Assembly: GCF_000427405.1 (NCBI RefSeq)
Contig: NZ_KE386491.1
Coordinates: forward strand, 3,476,790-3,540,789
DNA: 64,000 nt
Reading direction: 5' to 3'
From: Flectobacillus major DSM 103
GTDB taxonomy: Bacteria > Bacteroidota > Bacteroidia > Cytophagales > Spirosomataceae
Position 1 is the stretch's first letter, and each line of letters opens with the position of its first letter. The notes beneath the pieces are model-generated. The model was not told where the DNA came from, did no database searches, and saw only the letters and a list, made by a program, of their open reading frames with translations. The translations under genes were made by a program, and so were the position numbers. This document shows, one piece after another, positions 10,686-43,232 of this stretch.

Positions 10686-11005
10686 AGTCGTTTTGCGTTT
10701 ATTTGTTGATTTGTTTAACAAACATAAGTAATGATTAAACAAAAACAAAATATATTTACTCATTTTTCACAAAAAATAAATTCAAATTCGTAACTATTAA
10801 AAGCAAAAAAGGGCTTTTTTATTAGAATAATTATATTCAATATAAAAAACAAGTTTGAAAACGTACAATAAAAACCGTTTAATATAAATAAAAAAACATT
10901 AAACATAATTCATCAAAACGTTTTGTTGAACTTATATACCCTAAAATGTTAAACAAAAAGCAGGTCTATTGTCTTGGAAAGATACAATTATCAAAAAAAT
11001 ACAAA
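10686..11005. other. Divergent intergenic region, sigma factor to TonB receptor
   Basis: Extremely A/T-rich spacer of ~320 bp. Near 10797-10822 there is a weak AAAAGC...GCTTTT hairpin. No gene-like frame. The functional sites recognised are the operator and promoter immediately to the right (11006-11048). Confidence 0.4.
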
Positions 11006-11020
11006 TGCAACATCATTGCA
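11006..11020. promoter_or_regulatory. Zur-like palindromic operator (TonB receptor)
   Basis: TGCAACATCATTGCA, identical over all 15 bases to the site at 21015-21029. Its right half supplies the TTG of the predicted -33 element. Confidence 0.75.
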
Positions 11021-11048
11021 CATTTAAACACAATTATACTTACCTTTG
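11016..11048 (+). promoter_or_regulatory. Promoter of the TonB receptor gene
   Basis: TTG at 11016-11018, 22-bp spacer, TACCTTTG at 11041-11048. The operator at 11006-11020 covers the TTG, so a bound repressor would block polymerase. Confidence 0.65.
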
Positions 11049-11074: not shown

Positions 11075-13399
11075 GTGAAAAAGATTCTATTGATACTTAC
11101 GGTAATCATGATAGTGTGGTTGCCTACATGGGCACAAAACAACAACTGTACTTGTGTTTTGAAAGGAGTGGTTCATGAAACCAACATTCATAATCCTATT
11201 CCTGGGGCGGTGGTGTACTTAAAGGGCACAAAATACGCCGAGTATACCAATGCTGAAGGAAAATACAACTTCAAAAACCTTTGTCAAGGCACATATACGC
11301 TAGTATGTCAGGCTGTTGGTTATCAAAAGGTTGAAGTAGTCATCAATTTGTCGAAAGAGCATTCAGAAGAACTAACCCTCAACAATTCCGACGAGCATTT
11401 GCAGGAGGTAATTGTGGCTGGCAAAAAACTCGAAAATAATACCCATACCAAAAATATTATTGAGGGTGATGCCCTTGAACAAAGCCGAGGGCAAAACCTT
11501 GCCGAATCGCTGAAGGCTGCTACGGGTGTTACTACTTTACAAACTGGTAGCAGTATTGCCAAACCCGTTATTCATGGGATGCACTCTAATCGTGTATTGA
11601 TTCTCAACAATGGTATTCGTCAAGAAGGCCAGCAATGGGGTAGCGAACACGCTCCTGAAATCGACCCATTTGTGGCCAAAAAATTAACGGTAGTAAAAGG
11701 TGCTGCGGGTGTTAGGTATGGCTCGGATGCTATTGCAGGTGTAATTATGGTAGAACCCAACCCTTTGCCCGATTCGGCTAAGATACATGGCGAAATCAAT
11801 ACTGTGGCTTTTTCTAATGGCCAACAAGGGGTTGTTTCGGGGATTGTAGAAGGTGGTATTTCTAGTATAAAAGGACTTGCTTGGCGGCTTCAGGGTACTT
11901 ACAAACGTGGCGGCGATATCAAAACAGCTCAATATTATTTGGCTAATACAGGGATTCAGGAGCGGAATTTCTCGGTTGCATTGGGCTATAATGCTATCCA
12001 TTGGGGTACAGAAGCATATTTTAGTTATTTCGACACCCAACTGGGTATTTTTGCTGGCTCGCATATTGGCAATATTACTGATTTGCTCAATGCTATTGAT
12101 AACCCTCGTCCTAGTAGCGATTATACACCTTCGTCGCCAAGTTATACAATCAATCGCCCCGACCAAGATTTAGCTCATAATTTGCTCAAAATAAAGTCAT
12201 TTTTTATTGCTGAAAACCTAGGAAAATGGACATTGACACTTTCAAGACAGTACGACTGGCGACTTGAATATGATATTCCTCGTGGCAATAGAACCTTAAA
12301 TACCCTCAATTTTAAGCTTACCAGTTATCAGGGTGAGCTTATTTTGGAACATAAACCTCTTTGGGGGATTTTGAGCGGTACTGTTGGGCTGAATGGCTTA
12401 TGGCAAGAAAACCTTTCATCGTCATATCAGTTAGAAAAGCCTTTGACTAATACCGTTCTAATTCCTAATTATCATACTAAAAGTGCGGGGTTGTTTTTGA
12501 TAGAGCGGTATGTAAAAAATAAATGGGAGATCGAAACGGGGCTTCGCTACGATATTCGCAATTCGGAGGCCTATGGTTTAAGTTTCAACAATACCATTTT
12601 TCACCATTCATTTACTTTCAATAATGCCTCTGCTACCGCAGGCTTGGCCTATAATGCTTCTAGCAAGCTTACTTACAAAGCCAATGCCGCAATTGCATGG
12701 CGTGCACCCAATATGAACGAGCTGTTTTCAAATGGCGTACACCATGGTGCAGCAGCTTATGAAAAAGGTAATATTGATTTAGTACCCGAAGTAGCTCATA
12801 ATATATCGGTATCGGCAGAGTATTCTGGCGATCGGTGGGCTTGGGAAGTTGCTCCGTATTTTAATTATATCAAAGATTTTATTTATCTAAAACCAAGAAT
12901 TGAAAATGGTGTTCTACAAACTGTTTTATCGGTACGTGGAGCATTTCCTGCTTTTGATTATACTCAGGTAGATGCTGTGTTTGCGGGGGTAGATGCTTCG
13001 CTGAAATACATGATTACGCAACAGTTGTCTATTTCAGAAAAATATTCGATGGTAAGAGCCAAAGATGTTCGCAACGATAGCTATATGGTCAATATTCCAG
13101 CCAACCGCCTCGAAAGTACCCTAAAATATACTTTCTCTAAAAAAGATGCATATATTAGTATTAGTAATTTATGGGTAGCTCGTCAAAGCCGTGTAGAAGC
13201 CAATAGCGACTTTTTAGCTCCTCCTGCTGGCTATAACTTATGGAATTTGTACGCAGGGTATCCAATCAAAAAAGTAACCTTAGGCTTGAGTGTAAGCAAT
13301 CTTTTGAATACCGCCTACCGTGACTATATGAACCGTTTTAGGTATTTTACAGATGAAATGGGCCGAAATATTTCCTTGAGACTACAATACAAATTTTAG
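11075..13399 (+). CDS. TonB-dependent outer-membrane receptor, probably for zinc
   Basis: 774 aa with a GTG start: the signal peptide MKKILLILTVIMIVWLPTWAQ begins exactly there. Residues ~26-105 are a carboxypeptidase-regulatory-like domain (GVVHETNIHNPIPGAVVYLKG, ADGxY-like NAEGKYNFKNL), ~120-225 the plug (LAESLKAATGVTTLQTG, VLILNNGIRQEGQQWGSEHAPEIDPF, VVKGAAGVRYGSDAIAGVI), and the rest a 22-strand-type barrel ending in Phe (LRLQYKF). The substrate is inferred from regulation: its promoter carries the same operator as the MerC-CobW operon. The plug sequence also resembles ZnuD-like receptors. Other metals or metallophores are possible. Confidence 0.88.
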   Translation: MKKILLILTVIMIVWLPTWAQNNNCTCVLKGVVHETNIHNPIPGAVVYLKGTKYAEYTNAEGKYNFKNLCQGTYTLVCQAVGYQKVEVVINLSKEHSEELTLNNSDEHLQEVIVAGKKLENNTHTKNIIEGDALEQSRGQNLAESLKAATGVTTLQTGSSIAKPVIHGMHSNRVLILNNGIRQEGQQWGSEHAPEIDPFVAKKLTVVKGAAGVRYGSDAIAGVIMVEPNPLPDSAKIHGEINTVAFSNGQQGVVSGIVEGGISSIKGLAWRLQGTYKRGGDIKTAQYYLANTGIQERNFSVALGYNAIHWGTEAYFSYFDTQLGIFAGSHIGNITDLLNAIDNPRPSSDYTPSSPSYTINRPDQDLAHNLLKIKSFFIAENLGKWTLTLSRQYDWRLEYDIPRGNRTLNTLNFKLTSYQGELILEHKPLWGILSGTVGLNGLWQENLSSSYQLEKPLTNTVLIPNYHTKSAGLFLIERYVKNKWEIETGLRYDIRNSEAYGLSFNNTIFHHSFTFNNASATAGLAYNASSKLTYKANAAIAWRAPNMNELFSNGVHHGAAAYEKGNIDLVPEVAHNISVSAEYSGDRWAWEVAPYFNYIKDFIYLKPRIENGVLQTVLSVRGAFPAFDYTQVDAVFAGVDASLKYMITQQLSISEKYSMVRAKDVRNDSYMVNIPANRLESTLKYTFSKKDAYISISNLWVARQSRVEANSDFLAPPAGYNLWNLYAGYPIKKVTLGLSVSNLLNTAYRDYMNRFRYFTDEMGRNISLRLQYKF

Positions 13400-15320: not shown

Positions 15321-15800
15321 TTATTCAATTACTTCAGCTTCTTCCAGAATATAATTCATTTCATAAATATCGTCGGCATTCAACTTTAATTTGCCAGTGA
15401 AAGTGTGCATTTCATCGGTCTTGTATTTCTTTGAAGCTCCTTTTTTAGGTTTCAACGACATAACTGATTCGGGGCCTGCACCACCACAAAAAAAGCATTG
15501 GCTATAAGGAAAAGCCGACAATACATATACATTGGTAGCGGCATCGACAGGTATTACGTACCCTTTGATTGTCACTTCTTTGTTTTCTAATTTTTTTACA
15601 CCAGGCCCAAAAGTAGGGTACAACATATAAATAGATTCTTGAGGATACCATTTTTTCTTAAAGGTAACGTCTTTGAGCATATCCCAAGTAAGTTTATCAC
15701 TTGGCAAAGCCATCGTTTTGCGGTTGGCAGGGTCTATAGCCAATGCCGACTGACTCAATAACACAATCAGGGCAAGAAAGCTAAATATTTTTTGTTTCAT
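15321..15800 (-). CDS. Secreted DUF3299-like protein of a metal ABC-transporter operon
   Basis: 159 aa with signal peptide MKQKIFSFLALIVLLSQSALA. The segment ITIKGYVIPVDAATNVYVLSAFPYSQCFFCGGAGPESVM, with a CxxCGGAGPES motif, is the hallmark of the DUF3299 family; the cysteines may bind metal. In Pseudomonas aeruginosa the cluster PA4064-PA4066 (ATPase, permease, DUF3299) has the same composition and is zinc-regulated, so I infer a role in zinc uptake. The gene is 54 bp after the permease and is last in the operon before a terminator. Confidence 0.8.
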   Translation of the reverse strand: MKQKIFSFLALIVLLSQSALAIDPANRKTMALPSDKLTWDMLKDVTFKKKWYPQESIYMLYPTFGPGVKKLENKEVTIKGYVIPVDAATNVYVLSAFPYSQCFFCGGAGPESVMSLKPKKGASKKYKTDEMHTFTGKLKLNADDIYEMNYILEEAEVIE

Positions 15801-15854
15801 AACTGTTGATGTTTGGTAGTTTGTGTACAGGGTTTTTTATTTCAAGTAAATTTC

Positions 15855-17102
15855 TTAATCGTCGGCTAATGTTCTGGAAATATCTATTTTATAAATACCT
15901 ATCGACGGAATTGCAGCGGCCAATAAACCTATAATAAGAGCCCCCAACAAAAGCCAGAATTCTTCGGTAAGCAAAGATAGAACGTTGAAATCATAATGAA
16001 AATTTTGTTCGACATTCTGTGCCATTACCCATACGCCCAATCTACTTAGCAAAACGCCAACAACATAACCTATTATACTGATTATCAATCCTTCTGACAA
16101 CAAAAGAAAAAACAATTTTGTTCTGCTAGCTCCCATCGAAAGCATCAAGGCCATTTCATATTTTCGCTCTTTCAACGAATTATACAGCGATACAAACACA
16201 CTAATACCCGATACCACTATAATAACAAGGGCTATTAGTTGTAGGGTTTCGATACCCAAACCCATCAAAGCAAACAAACGGTTCATTTCAATAGCTGGCG
16301 TAGCTGTTTGCATGGTCGAGTTTTGATTAATACTTCTCGAAATCATCATACCCATTGCTGGATTCCTGAACTTGACCAGCATGGCGGTAATTTCTTTTTC
16401 TTCCTCGTGGTGTTCATCCTCGTGGTGTTCATCTTCTGTTAATAACTTCAAGGCATTTGCTCCTTTGCCTGCCTCCTCTTCTTCATGATGCTCGTGCAAT
16501 GCCCATACGCTTTCGAGTGGCGTAATCAACAATTGGTCTAGCACCGAATTGGTGGTTTTTAGAATACCTACCACCTTAAATTTATTATTGTCGTGATGAT
16601 GCCCTTCGCCATCGTAACCATGCTGGCTGGCAAAGGTATCTCCTACTTTTAAGCCCAGATTTTTAGCAACTTTTGCCCCTAATACCATGTCGAGAGATTT
16701 TTCAAAAATTCTACCTTGCTCAAATTCGCCTTGAAAATGGCTGATATACTTTTCATTTGTACCTACAATTCTATAGCCCTGATAGCTGTCGCCCATAGAA
16801 AGCGGAATAGCCGATTGTACCATAGGGTTTCGGGTAAACTGGGAGGCTTCGGCCAAACTGATATTGCCTGTCGGGGCATCGATTTGATAAATACTTGCCA
16901 AAATCAATTGTAAAGGACTCCCTTTTGCTCCTAGCACCATATCAATACCTTGTACATTGCGGGTAAACTTCTCTTCGAGCTGCTTACCTACCAACAACAA
17001 TAACGATATAATGGCAATACCCAACGCCATAAGCAAAATACTCAGGAAGCTAGTAAGGGGTTTATCTTTAATATTTTTCCAAGAAATATTGAGTAAATTC
17101 AT
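15855..17102 (-). CDS. ABC transporter permease (MacB/FtsX type) with His/Glu-rich loop
   Basis: 415 aa from the ATG at 17102; an ATG at 17147 also opens the frame but the family start fits MNLLNISWKNIKDKPLTSFLS. One N-terminal helix, a large extracytoplasmic domain at ~45-280, then three C-terminal helices with the FtsX signature (SLKERKYEMALMLSMGASRTKLFFLLLSEG). The extracytoplasmic domain carries two His-rich stretches, HGYDGEGHHHDNN near ~165 and a longer HEHHEEEE...EDEHHEDEHHEEEKE region near ~205-240, which suggest zinc binding. Forms a transporter with the ATPase 51 bp upstream. Direction of transport and substrate are inference. Confidence 0.85.
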   Translation of the reverse strand: MNLLNISWKNIKDKPLTSFLSILLMALGIAIISLLLLVGKQLEEKFTRNVQGIDMVLGAKGSPLQLILASIYQIDAPTGNISLAEASQFTRNPMVQSAIPLSMGDSYQGYRIVGTNEKYISHFQGEFEQGRIFEKSLDMVLGAKVAKNLGLKVGDTFASQHGYDGEGHHHDNNKFKVVGILKTTNSVLDQLLITPLESVWALHEHHEEEEAGKGANALKLLTEDEHHEDEHHEEEKEITAMLVKFRNPAMGMMISRSINQNSTMQTATPAIEMNRLFALMGLGIETLQLIALVIIVVSGISVFVSLYNSLKERKYEMALMLSMGASRTKLFFLLLSEGLIISIIGYVVGVLLSRLGVWVMAQNVEQNFHYDFNVLSLLTEEFWLLLGALIIGLLAAAIPSIGIYKIDISRTLADD

Positions 17103-17153
17103 TTGTGTATTTAGTGCTATATAAAGTGCTTTCGCACCAATGGTCATGATTAA

Positions 17154-17795
17154 TTAAAGAGAAAGTTGATGCTCAAATACATCTTTCAATCGTTGGTCGT
17201 GGGTTACTACGACTAAACTTGCTCCTATTTCTTGTGTCTGACGTTTTAGTAAATCAATCACTTTAAGGCAGTTATCATCGTCGAGATTGGAAGTAGGCTC
17301 ATCGGCCAAAATCAGCGAAGGGTTGTTCATCAAAGCCCTAGCAATACTTACTCGCTGTTGTTCACCTTGCGACAGCTGCGTAGTTTTTTTGTTGAGGTGG
17401 TCGGCAAAACCCAAACTTTCGGCCAAATGAATAGCATTTTGCTTAGCAAGTGTTTTTCCTGCCAAATAATTGGCCAACAACAGATTGTCTAATACCGAAA
17501 GAGCGTGTACAAAATGAGGTTTTTGGTAAACAATTCCTACATGGGCAGCACGAAAGCTAGCAGCTTCAGAGGCCGACAATCGGCTGATTTCTTGGTGATT
17601 AATTTGAATATTTCCGCCTGTTGGTTTTAGCAATAAGGCCATCAAATGAAGAAATGTAGTTTTTCCTCGACCCGATTTACCCAAAATCAGCATGGTTTCG
17701 TGGTCGGCACAGGAAAAATCAGGGAAAACGAATTGTTTTGTAGGAACTCCTGGTTGAGCTGGATACGCAAAAGTTAGTTGTTGTGTCGAAATCAC
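17154..17795 (-). CDS. ABC transporter ATP-binding protein (LolD/MacB-like)
   Basis: 213-aa stand-alone nucleotide-binding protein. Walker A is GKSGRGKTT near residues 37-45, the signature is [16 protein letters not shown], Walker B is [13 protein letters not shown] and the H-loop is VVVTHDQ. First gene of a three-gene unit with the FtsX-like permease and the DUF3299 protein. Confidence 0.9.
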
Positions 17796-19347: not shown

Positions 19348-20556
19348 CTAGCCTAATACTGGGAATGGGTCTGCAAATTTTTTCTTAGCATTCATCCATA
19401 CTATTTCCTCCTCAGTACATAAACACGACCGTAACTCATCCAAGATAAGGCTTTGGTCCAAATCTTGACCAATAATAACCAATTCGTTGATTCGGTCGCC
19501 AAAACGTTTATCCCATCGTTGCATAATTGTTTTTTTAGCTTCTTGCCAAGCTGGGTAAAACGGTCGTTCCCAATCGGGTACACCTGCCCACCATGTACCT
19601 GCGGCATCAGCCCGCAACGATCCCCCCGCTTGCCCCCAATTAAGGGCATCTTTGGGCCGAGAAGCCAACCAGAATAACCCTTTAGAGCGAATAATACCCG
19701 CTGGCCAGTTTTGATTGATATATTGCCAAAAACGTTCTGGATGAAATGGCCGTGCATCTCTAAAAACAAAAGAAGTAATACCGTATTCTTCTGTTTCGGG
19801 GGTATGATTACCCTTTTCTAGCTCTTTGAGCCAACCTGCCGACTGTGAAGATTGCTCAAAGTCAAACAAACCAGTATTGAGGATTGCCTTAGGACTGACC
19901 TTTCCAAAAGTGGATTCTACAACCTGAGCATCGGGATTGAGCTTTTTGATAATAGCTTTTAACTCACCCAAACGATTGGCCGACAATAAGTCGGTTTTAT
20001 TAAGAATAATTACATTGGCAAACTCAATTTGGTCAGTCAATAAATTCACGATTGTCCGAGTGTCGTTAGGGTCATCATCGTTTAGCCCACGAGACCAAAC
20101 GGTATCTATCGAACCAAAATCACTTGGAAAATTAAAGCAATCTACTACTGTAACCATTGTATCTAAATGAGCAAATTTGGATAAATCAATACCACTAGCT
20201 TCGTCAACATAAGAAAACGTTTGAGCCACAGGCAAAGGCTCGGAAATACCCGTTGATTCAATAATCAAGTAATCAAAGCGATTTTCTTTAGCTAGTTTTT
20301 CTACTTCTACCATCAAATCCTCTCGTAGTGTACAACAAATACAGCCATTCGACATTTCGACAAGCCGTTCTTCAGTTCGTGACAAAACATTTTCTTGCTG
20401 TACCAACTGAGCATCTACATTGATTTCGCTCATATCGTTGACAATAACCGCCACCCGTAGGTTTTCTTTATTATGTAAGATATGATTAAGTAAAGAGGTT
20501 TTTCCTGCTCCCAAAAAACCACTAAGTACCGTTACTGGAAGTTTTTTATTTGACAT
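19348..20556 (-). CDS. CobW/COG0523-family GTPase, probable zinc metallochaperone
   Basis: 402 aa. Walker [14 protein letters not shown] begins near residue 13, the metal-binding motif GCICCTL is at 71-77, the G4 motif is ILNKTDLL, and the C-terminal CobW_C domain runs from ~255 ([21 protein letters not shown]). COG0523 members with CxCC bind zinc and deliver it to client proteins during starvation. It overlaps the merC-like gene by 25 bp, indicating one transcription unit, and that unit has the palindromic operators at its promoter. This supports zinc rather than cobalamin. Confidence 0.9.
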
Positions 20557-20930
20557 TTTTTACAGAATCTAATATTGAAAAAATGAATAACAATCAAAGC
20601 CAACGAGGCTATATACCCAACATACTGTAGAAACGGAAGGTCATCTTCAAAAATAATAGCCACCGCAAAAGCCAAAAAAGCTAACCAAAACGCTCGTACA
20701 ATACGAATAGATACACAAGACCGAGTTGTAGAAAACACAGCAATAAAGCAAAGTAAAACAAATACATAATCCCAGCAATCGTGGGCTTCGTCGAGGGCTA
20801 CCTGTGTTTGAGAATACTGATAATATGCTTTCAAAAACATTATTATCGGTGTAGCCAAACAATGTACCAGGCATATTGCCGAACTGAATATGCCTAAATA
20901 ATCGTACCAAAAGTTGAGTTTCTTTTCCAT
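20532..20930 (-). CDS. MerC-domain membrane protein
   Basis: 132 aa, about four hydrophobic helices. The MerC-type motif [13 protein letters not shown] (Cys-x-x-x-Cys plus His) occupies helix 1 near residues 16-28, and a second Cys pair CKKC is at the C-terminus. MerC proteins import Hg(II) in mercury resistance, but the chromosomal Bacteroidota versions next to CobW GTPases are more plausibly part of metal starvation responses. The ATG abuts the right operator arm directly, giving a leader of only ~10 nt. Confidence 0.85.
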
Positions 20931-20951
20931 ATTTGCAACATTGTTGCAAAT
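20931..20951. promoter_or_regulatory. Zur-like operator site 1 (over the merC -7 box)
   Basis: A perfect 21-bp palindrome, arms ATTTGCAACA / TGTTGCAAAT around one central base. It covers most of the minus-strand -7 box TATATTTG. Confidence 0.8.
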
Positions 20952-20978
20952 ATAAATATTCTATTTTCATTTTTGCAA
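20947..20978 (-). promoter_or_regulatory. Promoter of the merC-cobW operon
   Basis: On the minus strand TTG (20978-20976), 21-bp spacer, TATATTTG (20954-20947). The -33 is inside operator site 2 and the -7 overlaps site 1. Confidence 0.7.
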
Positions 20979-20988
20979 CATTATTGCG
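20973..20988. promoter_or_regulatory. Zur-like operator site 2 (shared central site)
   Basis: TTGCAACATTATTGCG, one deviating base in the right arm. Its left half contains the -33 TTG of the minus-strand promoter and its right half the -33 TTG of the plus-strand promoter. Centre-to-centre spacing is 40 bp to site 1 and 41 bp to site 3. Confidence 0.75.
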
Positions 20989-21016
20989 TAATATTCAAAA
21001 AGAAATACTAAATTTG
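20984..21016 (+). promoter_or_regulatory. Promoter of the metal-responsive lipoprotein gene
   Basis: TTG at 20984-20986, 22-bp spacer, TAAATTTG at 21009-21016; start expected near 21023, 28 nt before the ATG. Same 22-bp spacing as the TonB receptor promoter. Confidence 0.7.
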
Positions 21017-21029
21017 CAACATCATTGCA
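21014..21029. promoter_or_regulatory. Zur-like operator site 3 (over the lipoprotein -7 box)
   Basis: TTGCAACATCATTGCA; shares its 15-base core exactly with the site at 11006-11020. Overlaps the end of the -7 box and the predicted start of transcription. Confidence 0.75.
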
Positions 21030-21050
21030 TTAATAAACTTATCATAAAAT

Positions 21051-21602
21051 ATGAAACTCGTACGTAATAGAATTTGGGTAATGGCATTGTTGGCCACATC
21101 GTTGTTGGCTGGCTGTAAAAAAGATGAGCCTTCGCCTGTAGAAGACAGTGAAAACCTTACTACTTTAAAATTGATATTTACCAATGGTGGGGTTTCAACA
21201 ACTTATGCGTTCAAAGACCTTGACGGTATTGGTGGCAATGCCCCTGTTATTGATAAAATCAACCTAGATGCCAACAAAACTTACACAGTAGCAGTAGAGG
21301 TTTGGGATGAAAGTAAAACGCCTGCAGAAAATACCACAACAGAAATAGAAGAGGAAAGCTTTGAACATTTATTTGTGTACACTCCTACTCCTAGTAATTT
21401 ATTGACCGTTACACGTACCGATAAAGACAACCGTAATTTGGAAGTAGGCTTAAAGGCAAGTGTACAAACTAACGCCGCAGGAACAGGAAAGTTGAAGGTG
21501 GTTTTGTATCATCAGCCTCCTCAAAATGGCACGCCAATCAAAGATGGTACAGCCAAAGGAAGTACCGACTTTGAAGCAGAATTTGATGTAACAGTAAAAT
21601 AG
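21051..21602 (+). CDS. Putative metal-responsive lipoprotein (183 aa)
   Basis: Signal peptide MKLVRNRIWVMALLATSLLAGC with lipidation at the Cys in LLAGCKK. The mature part looks like one beta-sandwich domain (LTTLKLIFTNGGVSTTYAFKD, KTYTVAVEVWDESK, KLKVVLYHQPPQNG, ending in FEAEFDVTVK). I know no biochemical function; similar short lipoproteins accompany TonB receptors and MerC/CobW genes in Bacteroidota. Three palindromic operators at its promoter put it in the same regulon as the TonB receptor, perhaps as a surface or periplasmic metal-binding helper. Confidence 0.8.
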   Translation: MKLVRNRIWVMALLATSLLAGCKKDEPSPVEDSENLTTLKLIFTNGGVSTTYAFKDLDGIGGNAPVIDKINLDANKTYTVAVEVWDESKTPAENTTTEIEEESFEHLFVYTPTPSNLLTVTRTDKDNRNLEVGLKASVQTNAAGTGKLKVVLYHQPPQNGTPIKDGTAKGSTDFEAEFDVTVK

Positions 21603-42797: not shown

Positions 42798-43232
42798 ATG
42801 AATACTACCACCATAAAAAATACATTGAAGGCTTATAGCCTCCGACAAACTGAATGCCGAGAAGAAATTTTAGATATATTTCTTACAAAAGCATACGCTT
42901 TGGCTCATGCCGATGTCGAAACTCAAATGTCAGAAAAATTTGACCGTGTTACTGTTTATAGAACACTCAAAACTTTTTTGGACAAAGGCTTAATTCACAA
43001 AGTACTCGACGACGAAGGAGGTATCAAATACGCCCTTTGTAAAGACGATTGCCATACTTCCGACCATAAGCATCACCACGACCACGTGCATTTTAAATGT
43101 ACTAACTGTGGGCTTACAACCTGCCTCGATCACGTTGTGATTCCTACTATAGCCCTGCCAGAAGGCTATAAACGCCAAGAAACAAACTTGTTGGTACAGG
43201 GTGTTTGTAAAGACTGTAGTAAGACGGCTTAG
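42798..43232 (+). CDS. Fur-family metalloregulator (possibly Zur)
   Basis: 144 aa. Winged helix at ~1-80 (RQTECREEILDIFLTKAYALAHADVETQM, FDRVTVYRTLKTFLDKGLIHKV), dimer/metal domain at ~85-144 with a His-rich stretch HTSDHKHHHDHVHF and two Cys pairs (CTNCG and CKDC) forming the structural zinc site. The family can be Fur, Zur or PerR; a Zur role is attractive because a zinc-type regulon is in this window, but it is not adjacent to those genes. Co-transcribed with the ABC exporter. Confidence 0.88.
   Translation: MNTTTIKNTLKAYSLRQTECREEILDIFLTKAYALAHADVETQMSEKFDRVTVYRTLKTFLDKGLIHKVLDDEGGIKYALCKDDCHTSDHKHHHDHVHFKCTNCGLTTCLDHVVIPTIALPEGYKRQETNLLVQGVCKDCSKTA

Follow-up and report, generated by a model that had tools for sequence, protein, structure and literature searches.

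Gene organization of the merC/lipoprotein locus

The window, i.e., the whole stretch of 64,000 nucleotides from Flectobacillus major DSM 103 that was analysed, includes a divergent gene pair encoding a MerC-domain membrane protein and a lipoprotein. The genes of the locus are:

19348-20556, minus strand: COG0523/CobW GTPase (cobW), ZigA-like, 402 aa (PF02492, PF07683)
20532-20930, minus strand: MerC-domain membrane protein (merC), 132 aa (PF03203, 61.6 bits, cut-off 27.6)
21051-21602, plus strand: lipoprotein, 183 aa, with no Pfam or NCBIfam family

The cobW gene overlaps merC, and the two likely form one operon. The COG0523 protein scores under the cut-off of the ZigA model NF038288 (562.9 bits, cut-off 600).

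Three palindromes overlap two outward-facing promoters

The intergenic stretch between merC and the lipoprotein gene carries three copies of a 17-bp palindrome (centres at 20941, 20981 and 21022), such that operators 1 and 2 are 40 bp apart and operators 2 and 3 are 41 bp apart, centre to centre. The operators and the associated promoter elements are:

20933-20949: putative operator 1, TTGCAACATTGTTGCAA, a perfect 17-bp palindrome overlapping the -7 box and the predicted start of merC
20973-20989: putative operator 2, TTGCAACATTATTGCGT, central, containing both -33 TTGs
21014-21030: putative operator 3, TTGCAACATCATTGCAT, overlapping the -7 box and the predicted start of the lipoprotein gene
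20954-20947, minus strand: merC -7 box, TATATTTG, running into operator 1, with a 21-bp spacer from the -33 TTG
20978-20976, minus strand: merC -33 TTG, within operator 2, a weak element inherent in the operator
21009-21016, plus strand: lipoprotein -7 box, TAAATTTG, running into operator 3, with a 22-bp spacer from the -33 TTG
20984-20986, plus strand: lipoprotein -33 TTG, within operator 2, a weak element inherent in the operator

The right half of operators 2 and 3 deviates from the perfect palindrome. A sequence-only reading of this DNA had reported three palindromes with centres 40 and 41 bp apart; the coordinates confirm this, and the range of 20931-21029 given for the region is correct to 1-2 bp. 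Site 1 was placed on the merC -7 box and site 3 on the lipoprotein -7 box, and both assignments hold in exact register. Both promoters match, facing outward, the TAnnTTTG consensus of the -7 box of the Bacteroidota primary sigma factor, as given in the extracts of PMC6847099 and PMC9723704. In Flavobacterium johnsoniae, 4 or 5 nt separate the -7 element from the start point (PMC6847099, extract); thus, the predicted starts of the two genes fall no more than 1 nt from the centres of operators 1 and 3. The two -33 TTGs that the same reading assigned to site 2 are present, but the match is weak evidence because the operator motif itself contains TTG and because, in F. johnsoniae, a -33 element is reported to be much less evident (PMC6847099, extract).

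Motif statistics

The motif was scored by a 17-position weight matrix built from 17 seed sites, each used in both orientations; 13 of the 17 come from these same loci. The three sites score 27.3, 22.5 and 22.2, and the next best match in the 64-kb window scores 16.7. In 100 dinucleotide shuffles, a score of at least 12 is reached by a mean of 1.04 matches per shuffled window, and at a lax cut-off of 8 one cluster of three matches within 100 bp appears across all shuffles. When 260 bp around the gene start were scored at each of 139 lipoprotein loci of the family, 164 matches of at least 12 were found versus 1.2 in shuffles, a count that is partly circular given the origin of the seed sites; the gene-body stretches of equal length at these loci, which are free of this circularity, have no such match, and the register described below is likewise independent of the seeding. 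The 8-mer TTGCAACA is not significantly enriched in the window (7 copies found versus 4.8 expected; 17 of 100 shuffles reach 7), and four of its seven copies fall in the merC/lipoprotein promoter stretch.

Conservation of the three-site layout

Of 150 family genomes, 142 have a match to the lipoprotein, and these matches cover 35 of 36 genera. The 139 loci examined represent one lipoprotein copy per genome, with G022, G055, G068 and second copies left out. Three sites are present at 17 of these loci, two at 48, one at 19 and none at 55. At the merC/lipoprotein gene pair, the three-site layout occurs in all five genomes of the genus, F. major included, with spacings of 40/41, 40/40, 40/40, 40/40 and 40/41 bp. 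Outside the genus, the same gene pair has this layout in G008 (g5; 40/40) and in one g36 genome, G039 (41/41). The spacing of 40 and 40-41 bp, for which phylogenetic footprinting had been suggested as a check, is thus conserved in seven loci of three genera. Pattern searches, with slightly different patterns for family and order, find the array in eight of 222 family genomes (seven at this gene pair and G174 elsewhere) and in four of 390 order genomes, one of which (G297) is a tandem repeat. A scan of contigs from all bacteria returns at least 120 stretches, including L238 and L288 with merC and the lipoprotein; most of the 35 stretches inspected by eye look like tandem repeats.

On a lipoprotein tree of 67 of the 139 proteins (a maximum of three per genus except for g1 and g36), the three-site label requires three changes. 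One clear origin of the layout is not supported by this tree, and the three changes may also be compatible with one gain followed by losses.

Many of the loci that lack sites have a gene upstream. A same-strand frame of more than 200 aa lies directly upstream in 49 of the 55 zero-site loci versus 28 of the 84 loci with sites. The six zero-site loci without a same-strand upstream gene are four of g12, L106 and L127 (which has little upstream DNA). For thirteen zero-site loci, about 5 kb of flanking DNA was inspected: a same-strand gene lies directly upstream at 11, and in all 11 the sites precede the first gene of the run; the other two (L093 and L106) have neither upstream gene nor sites.

Register of -7 boxes with operators

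A -7 box is considered in register when the TTG of TAnnTTTG is the start of the downstream operator. By this definition, the outward -7 box is in exact register at both outer sites of all seven three-site loci, and, for each direction, one of the seven also has such a box at its central site. Among 32 two-site relatives with a spacing of 36-41 bp, 27 show an in-register box on the lipoprotein side and none shows an outward one on the opposite side; inward boxes, for which the two-operator reading has no use, indicate the background (forward at the upstream site in 5/32, reverse at the lipoprotein-side site in 6/32) and, like those at the central site, count against this reading. Counted by lineage, the contrast of 7/7 to 0/32 represents at most three lineages versus eight genera (Fisher p 0.006), and g36 appears on both sides of it, with three sites in its divergent-merC genome and two in the other five genomes examined. 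Across 50 neighbouring pairs of sites 36-41 bp apart, TAnnTTTG is exactly in register in 37, and the 40 other offsets tried on these pairs yield two matches in total. A TTG at -33 is present in 46 of the 50 pairs and, being built into the motif, carries little weight.

Two promoters with one operator in common

The merC-cobW genes are also found apart from the lipoprotein gene. A MerC search of 12 chosen genomes identifies six loci in five genomes: two with three sites, one of a second kind of MerC (sites 28 bp apart) and three of merC-cobW away from the lipoprotein, all of g36 (one in G066 and two in G077). Each of these three separate copies has its own pair of sites (36, 39 and 35 bp apart) and an in-register merC-side -7 box, and another gene is divergent at two of them. 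In G066, a pair 39 bp apart is found at the lipoprotein gene and a separate pair 36 bp apart at merC. Since separate merC copies keep their own pair and, in G066, each of the two genes has one, the three-site promoter can be counted as two plus two minus one, and the layout reads as two ordinary two-operator promoters (one operator at -7 and one at -33) placed back to back with the upstream operator in common.

Other divergent layouts exist. Of 25 divergent merC/lipoprotein loci, 18 differ from the three-site layout, all 18 with a pair of sites 22-23 bp apart (genera g8, g16, g18, g26 and g29); thus, a general rule by which divergent merC entails three sites is rejected. Examples of divergent merC/lipoprotein promoters with sites 22-23 bp apart in other genera include L081, L094, L142 and L087. 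As MerC was recognized solely by BLAST to the proteins of the window, divergent MerC proteins may have been missed in these counts.

Spacing of the operators

Site pairs in relatives are 36-41 bp apart, corresponding to 3.4-3.9 helical turns. At 10.5 bp per turn, a 36-bp spacing corresponds to a helical phase of 154 degrees and a 41-bp spacing to one of -34 degrees, about half a turn apart. The spacing of two sites equals the promoter spacer plus 19, so pairs 36-41 bp apart mean spacers of 17-22 bp. Because the ends of the range differ by about half a turn, promoter geometry is favoured over a fixed helical face as the basis of the spacing, and same-face phasing as its cause is unsupported. 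The earlier proposal that the sites lie four helical turns apart on one DNA face, possibly with cooperative binding, finds no backing in the 36-41 bp range or in the 18 of 25 divergent loci without a 40/41 triple. The spacing data provide no support for cooperativity between the sites.

Candidate regulator

The motif on both promoters very probably serves as the binding site of a metal-responsive repressor of the Fur family. Four Fur-family genes are present in the F. major genome, two of which are considered here:

42798-43232, plus strand: FURw, Fur-family protein (PF01475, 35.7 bits, cut-off 23.1)
C6:287854-288261: FUR2, second Fur-like protein, beside a cation-efflux gene

FURw lies about 22 kb from the promoter and does not adjoin merC or the lipoprotein gene. 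Its homologues (at least 57% identity) are found in 36 of 36 genus representatives, and an additional, FUR2-like protein (30-43% to FURw) occurs in six of the 36. At 19 loci of six genera, a Fur gene is located beside the lipoprotein gene; all 19 encode proteins nearer to FURw (54-63%) than to FUR2 (37-40%), and all 19 have the motif (score of at least 10) between the Fur gene and a MerC gene. In nine of the 19 the motif reaches into the longest possible MerC frame, and in 14 the sites form a pair 37-39 bp apart. FURw, which had been put forward as the protein to footprint on this promoter, is thus the best candidate and likely the regulator of the merC/lipoprotein promoter.

The closest solved relative of FURw is FurB of Mycobacterium tuberculosis (2o03, E 2.3e-6), whose structure entry names it as a probable regulator of zinc uptake, but PerR (2fe3, 5.3e-6) and Fur (9ire, 4.2e-5) are close behind, and E. 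coli Zur scores 2.2e-4 (4mtd). FURw is below the cut-offs of the NCBIfam Zur model NF008646 (31.2 bits, cut-off 167) and of a Fur model (33.0 bits, cut-off 220). With a score far under the Zur cut-off and slightly higher for the Fur model, the term Zur as applied to FURw denotes an inferred function and not a model-based name.

Proposed mechanism

The positions of the three sites, their register with the -7 boxes, their conservation and their links to FURw and to TonB, MerC and COG0523 genes are observed in the DNA. The intergenic stretch is probably a bidirectional zinc-starvation promoter on which FURw would act as a Zur-type repressor at up to three operators. Zinc-loaded FURw would occupy these operators. 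A dimer on each outer operator would cover a -7 box together with the start point, that of merC-cobW on one side and that of the lipoprotein gene on the other, and a dimer on the central operator would cover the upstream promoter region of both genes. When zinc is plentiful, both genes would be off; when zinc is short, the repressor would leave and both genes would be on. In this mechanism, we infer the binding of FURw, zinc as the signal, repression and the action of the central site on both promoters.

A more specific and tentative proposal is that operators and core promoters are fused in a near-symmetric repressor module, in which the central site is the upstream element of both promoters. 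Each outer operator would hold the end of a -7 box and be centred at the predicted start point. If so, occupancy of one central site would set both genes together, and such a module would arise wherever two two-operator promoters meet back to back, perhaps repeatedly. The promoter provides a natural case in which to ask whether one operator can gate two promoters.

Alternative explanations

A likeness that arose by chance in AT-rich, low-complexity intergenic DNA would fit the absence of significant enrichment of TTGCAACA in the window, but it is contradicted by the conservation of the sites, by the 164 upstream matches compared to 1.2 in shuffles and by the exact register of the -7 boxes, such that this explanation can practically be dismissed. 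Of far greater weight is the view that the three sites are separate operators, the central one serving a single promoter or acting as a mere backup, in which case the sharing would be one of geometry only. Paired Zur boxes are judged most likely independent in the extract of PMC6103462, and several loci whose sites lie 23 or 29 bp apart retain the -7 overlap (every g16 locus of this 23/29-bp class and the three g32 loci have a forward box at the lipoprotein-side site), which makes a position at 40 bp dispensable elsewhere. The opposing observation is that the central site lies 40-41 bp from both outer sites in all seven three-site loci, as 21-22-bp spacers require. Separate operators are therefore a plausible, if less than even, prospect.

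The identity of the repressor and of its metal may also differ from those proposed. FUR2 could read the sites, alone or with FURw, and the promoter would then answer to two paralogues. FUR2 has DRITLYRTL where FURw has DRVTVYRTL, a very similar stretch at what we take to be the expected position of the recognition helix, and an operator-like site lies between FUR2 and the efflux gene. The restriction of second copies to six of 36 representatives, compared to 36 of 36 for FURw homologues, and the closer identity of all 19 lipoprotein-adjacent Fur proteins to FURw make a role of FUR2 unlikely. Sensing of another metal, such as nickel, cobalt or manganese, in place of zinc is consistent with the MerC, TonB and COG0523 families, which are not restricted to zinc, and with the Fur-family models, which leave the metal undecided. 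Zinc is indicated by the COG0523 protein, whose best-scoring model is that of the zinc chaperone ZigA (562.9 bits, compared to 176.7 for the runner-up), by the match of FURw to M. tuberculosis FurB as its best solved relative and by the zinc-transporter dimerization domain encoded by the efflux gene near FUR2; a different metal is accordingly quite improbable.

Comparison to known systems

Zur boxes that cover both the -35 and -10 elements are described for Bacillus subtilis yciC and Streptomyces coelicolor znuA in PMC6103462 (extract), which regards the significance of such double boxes as unclear; yciC is a COG0523 gene (PMC2770081, extract). As in these systems, each promoter here has one putative operator per core element, i.e., two operators of one zinc repressor on both core elements; those of yciC and znuA, however, serve one direction only and are associated with other sigma-factor elements. 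The Zur operator sequence of yciC and znuA also differs from this motif.

Divergent znuA/znuC promoters with one common Zur box are reported in extracts of PMC2706843 and, for Synechococcus, PMC9337993; in the former, two footprints are seen and a Zur box is in only one of these. The geometry of the F. major locus fits this type, in which one Zur operator serves two divergent zinc genes, but the extracts describe one box where a central box plus one per promoter is found here. A divergent promoter region with three operators of a Fur-family protein is also already published; these operators are interleaved with NikR sites, and a fixed spacing and double core-promoter register are not described in the extract available. 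Three operators between two divergent promoters are likewise known from the lambda right operator, which has closer spacing, proven cooperativity and opposite effects on its two promoters.

The statement that no description of this arrangement was known is thus partly upheld: the exact layout was not found among the best-ranked literature matches, but double Zur boxes, divergently shared boxes and a three-operator Fur region are in print. Each ingredient is already known elsewhere, and the combination is a variant on known promoter types. No Bacteroidota Zur box or regulon was found among the best-ranked matches of long lists from the open-licence literature (RegPrecise being outside this scope) or in the extracts of PMC2770081, PMC9976891, PMC11960050, PMC6613475 and PMC9723704.

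Probable regulon

The motif, about TTGCAAYANNRTTGCAA, provides a candidate zinc-repressor box and a likely regulon for a Bacteroidota family. Elsewhere in the window, it is associated with a TonB receptor gene:

11005-11021: additional operator-like site, scoring 16.7 and overlapping the -33 region of the TonB receptor gene
11016-11018: TTG of the TonB receptor promoter, with a 22-bp spacer
11041-11048: TACCTTTG of the TonB receptor promoter
11075-13399, plus strand: TonB-dependent receptor (PF00593, PF07715)

A homologue of this receptor (30-57% identity) is encoded within 4.5 kb of the lipoprotein gene at 76 of the 139 loci, in 20 genera. The receptor and the lipoprotein thus resemble an outer-membrane pair for metal uptake whose members are encoded apart in this genome.

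In the remainder of the F. major genome, the motif is found upstream of an ABC-transporter/TonB-receptor operon (two sites 39 bp apart) and of a second MerC gene (two sites 27 bp apart), and it also precedes the cation-efflux gene. The ABC transporter/TonB receptor/permease operon (L031:1923-8794) has a further motif copy about 860 bp beyond its upstream pair. At L035:3863-5265, FUR2 is followed by the cation-efflux gene with a single motif copy between the two; a Fur-family protein might control this exporter, either as activator or as repressor.

Within the window, the run at 15321-17795 encodes a small CxxC protein, a histidine-rich FtsX-type permease and an ABC ATPase and looks metal-related; no motif copy scoring at least 6 lies upstream of it before the merC promoter. 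The lipoprotein of 21051-21602 is linked to MerC, TonB receptor, COG0523 and FURw genes; this unnamed protein, tied to a TonB receptor and metal genes across the family, is worth naming as a protein family.
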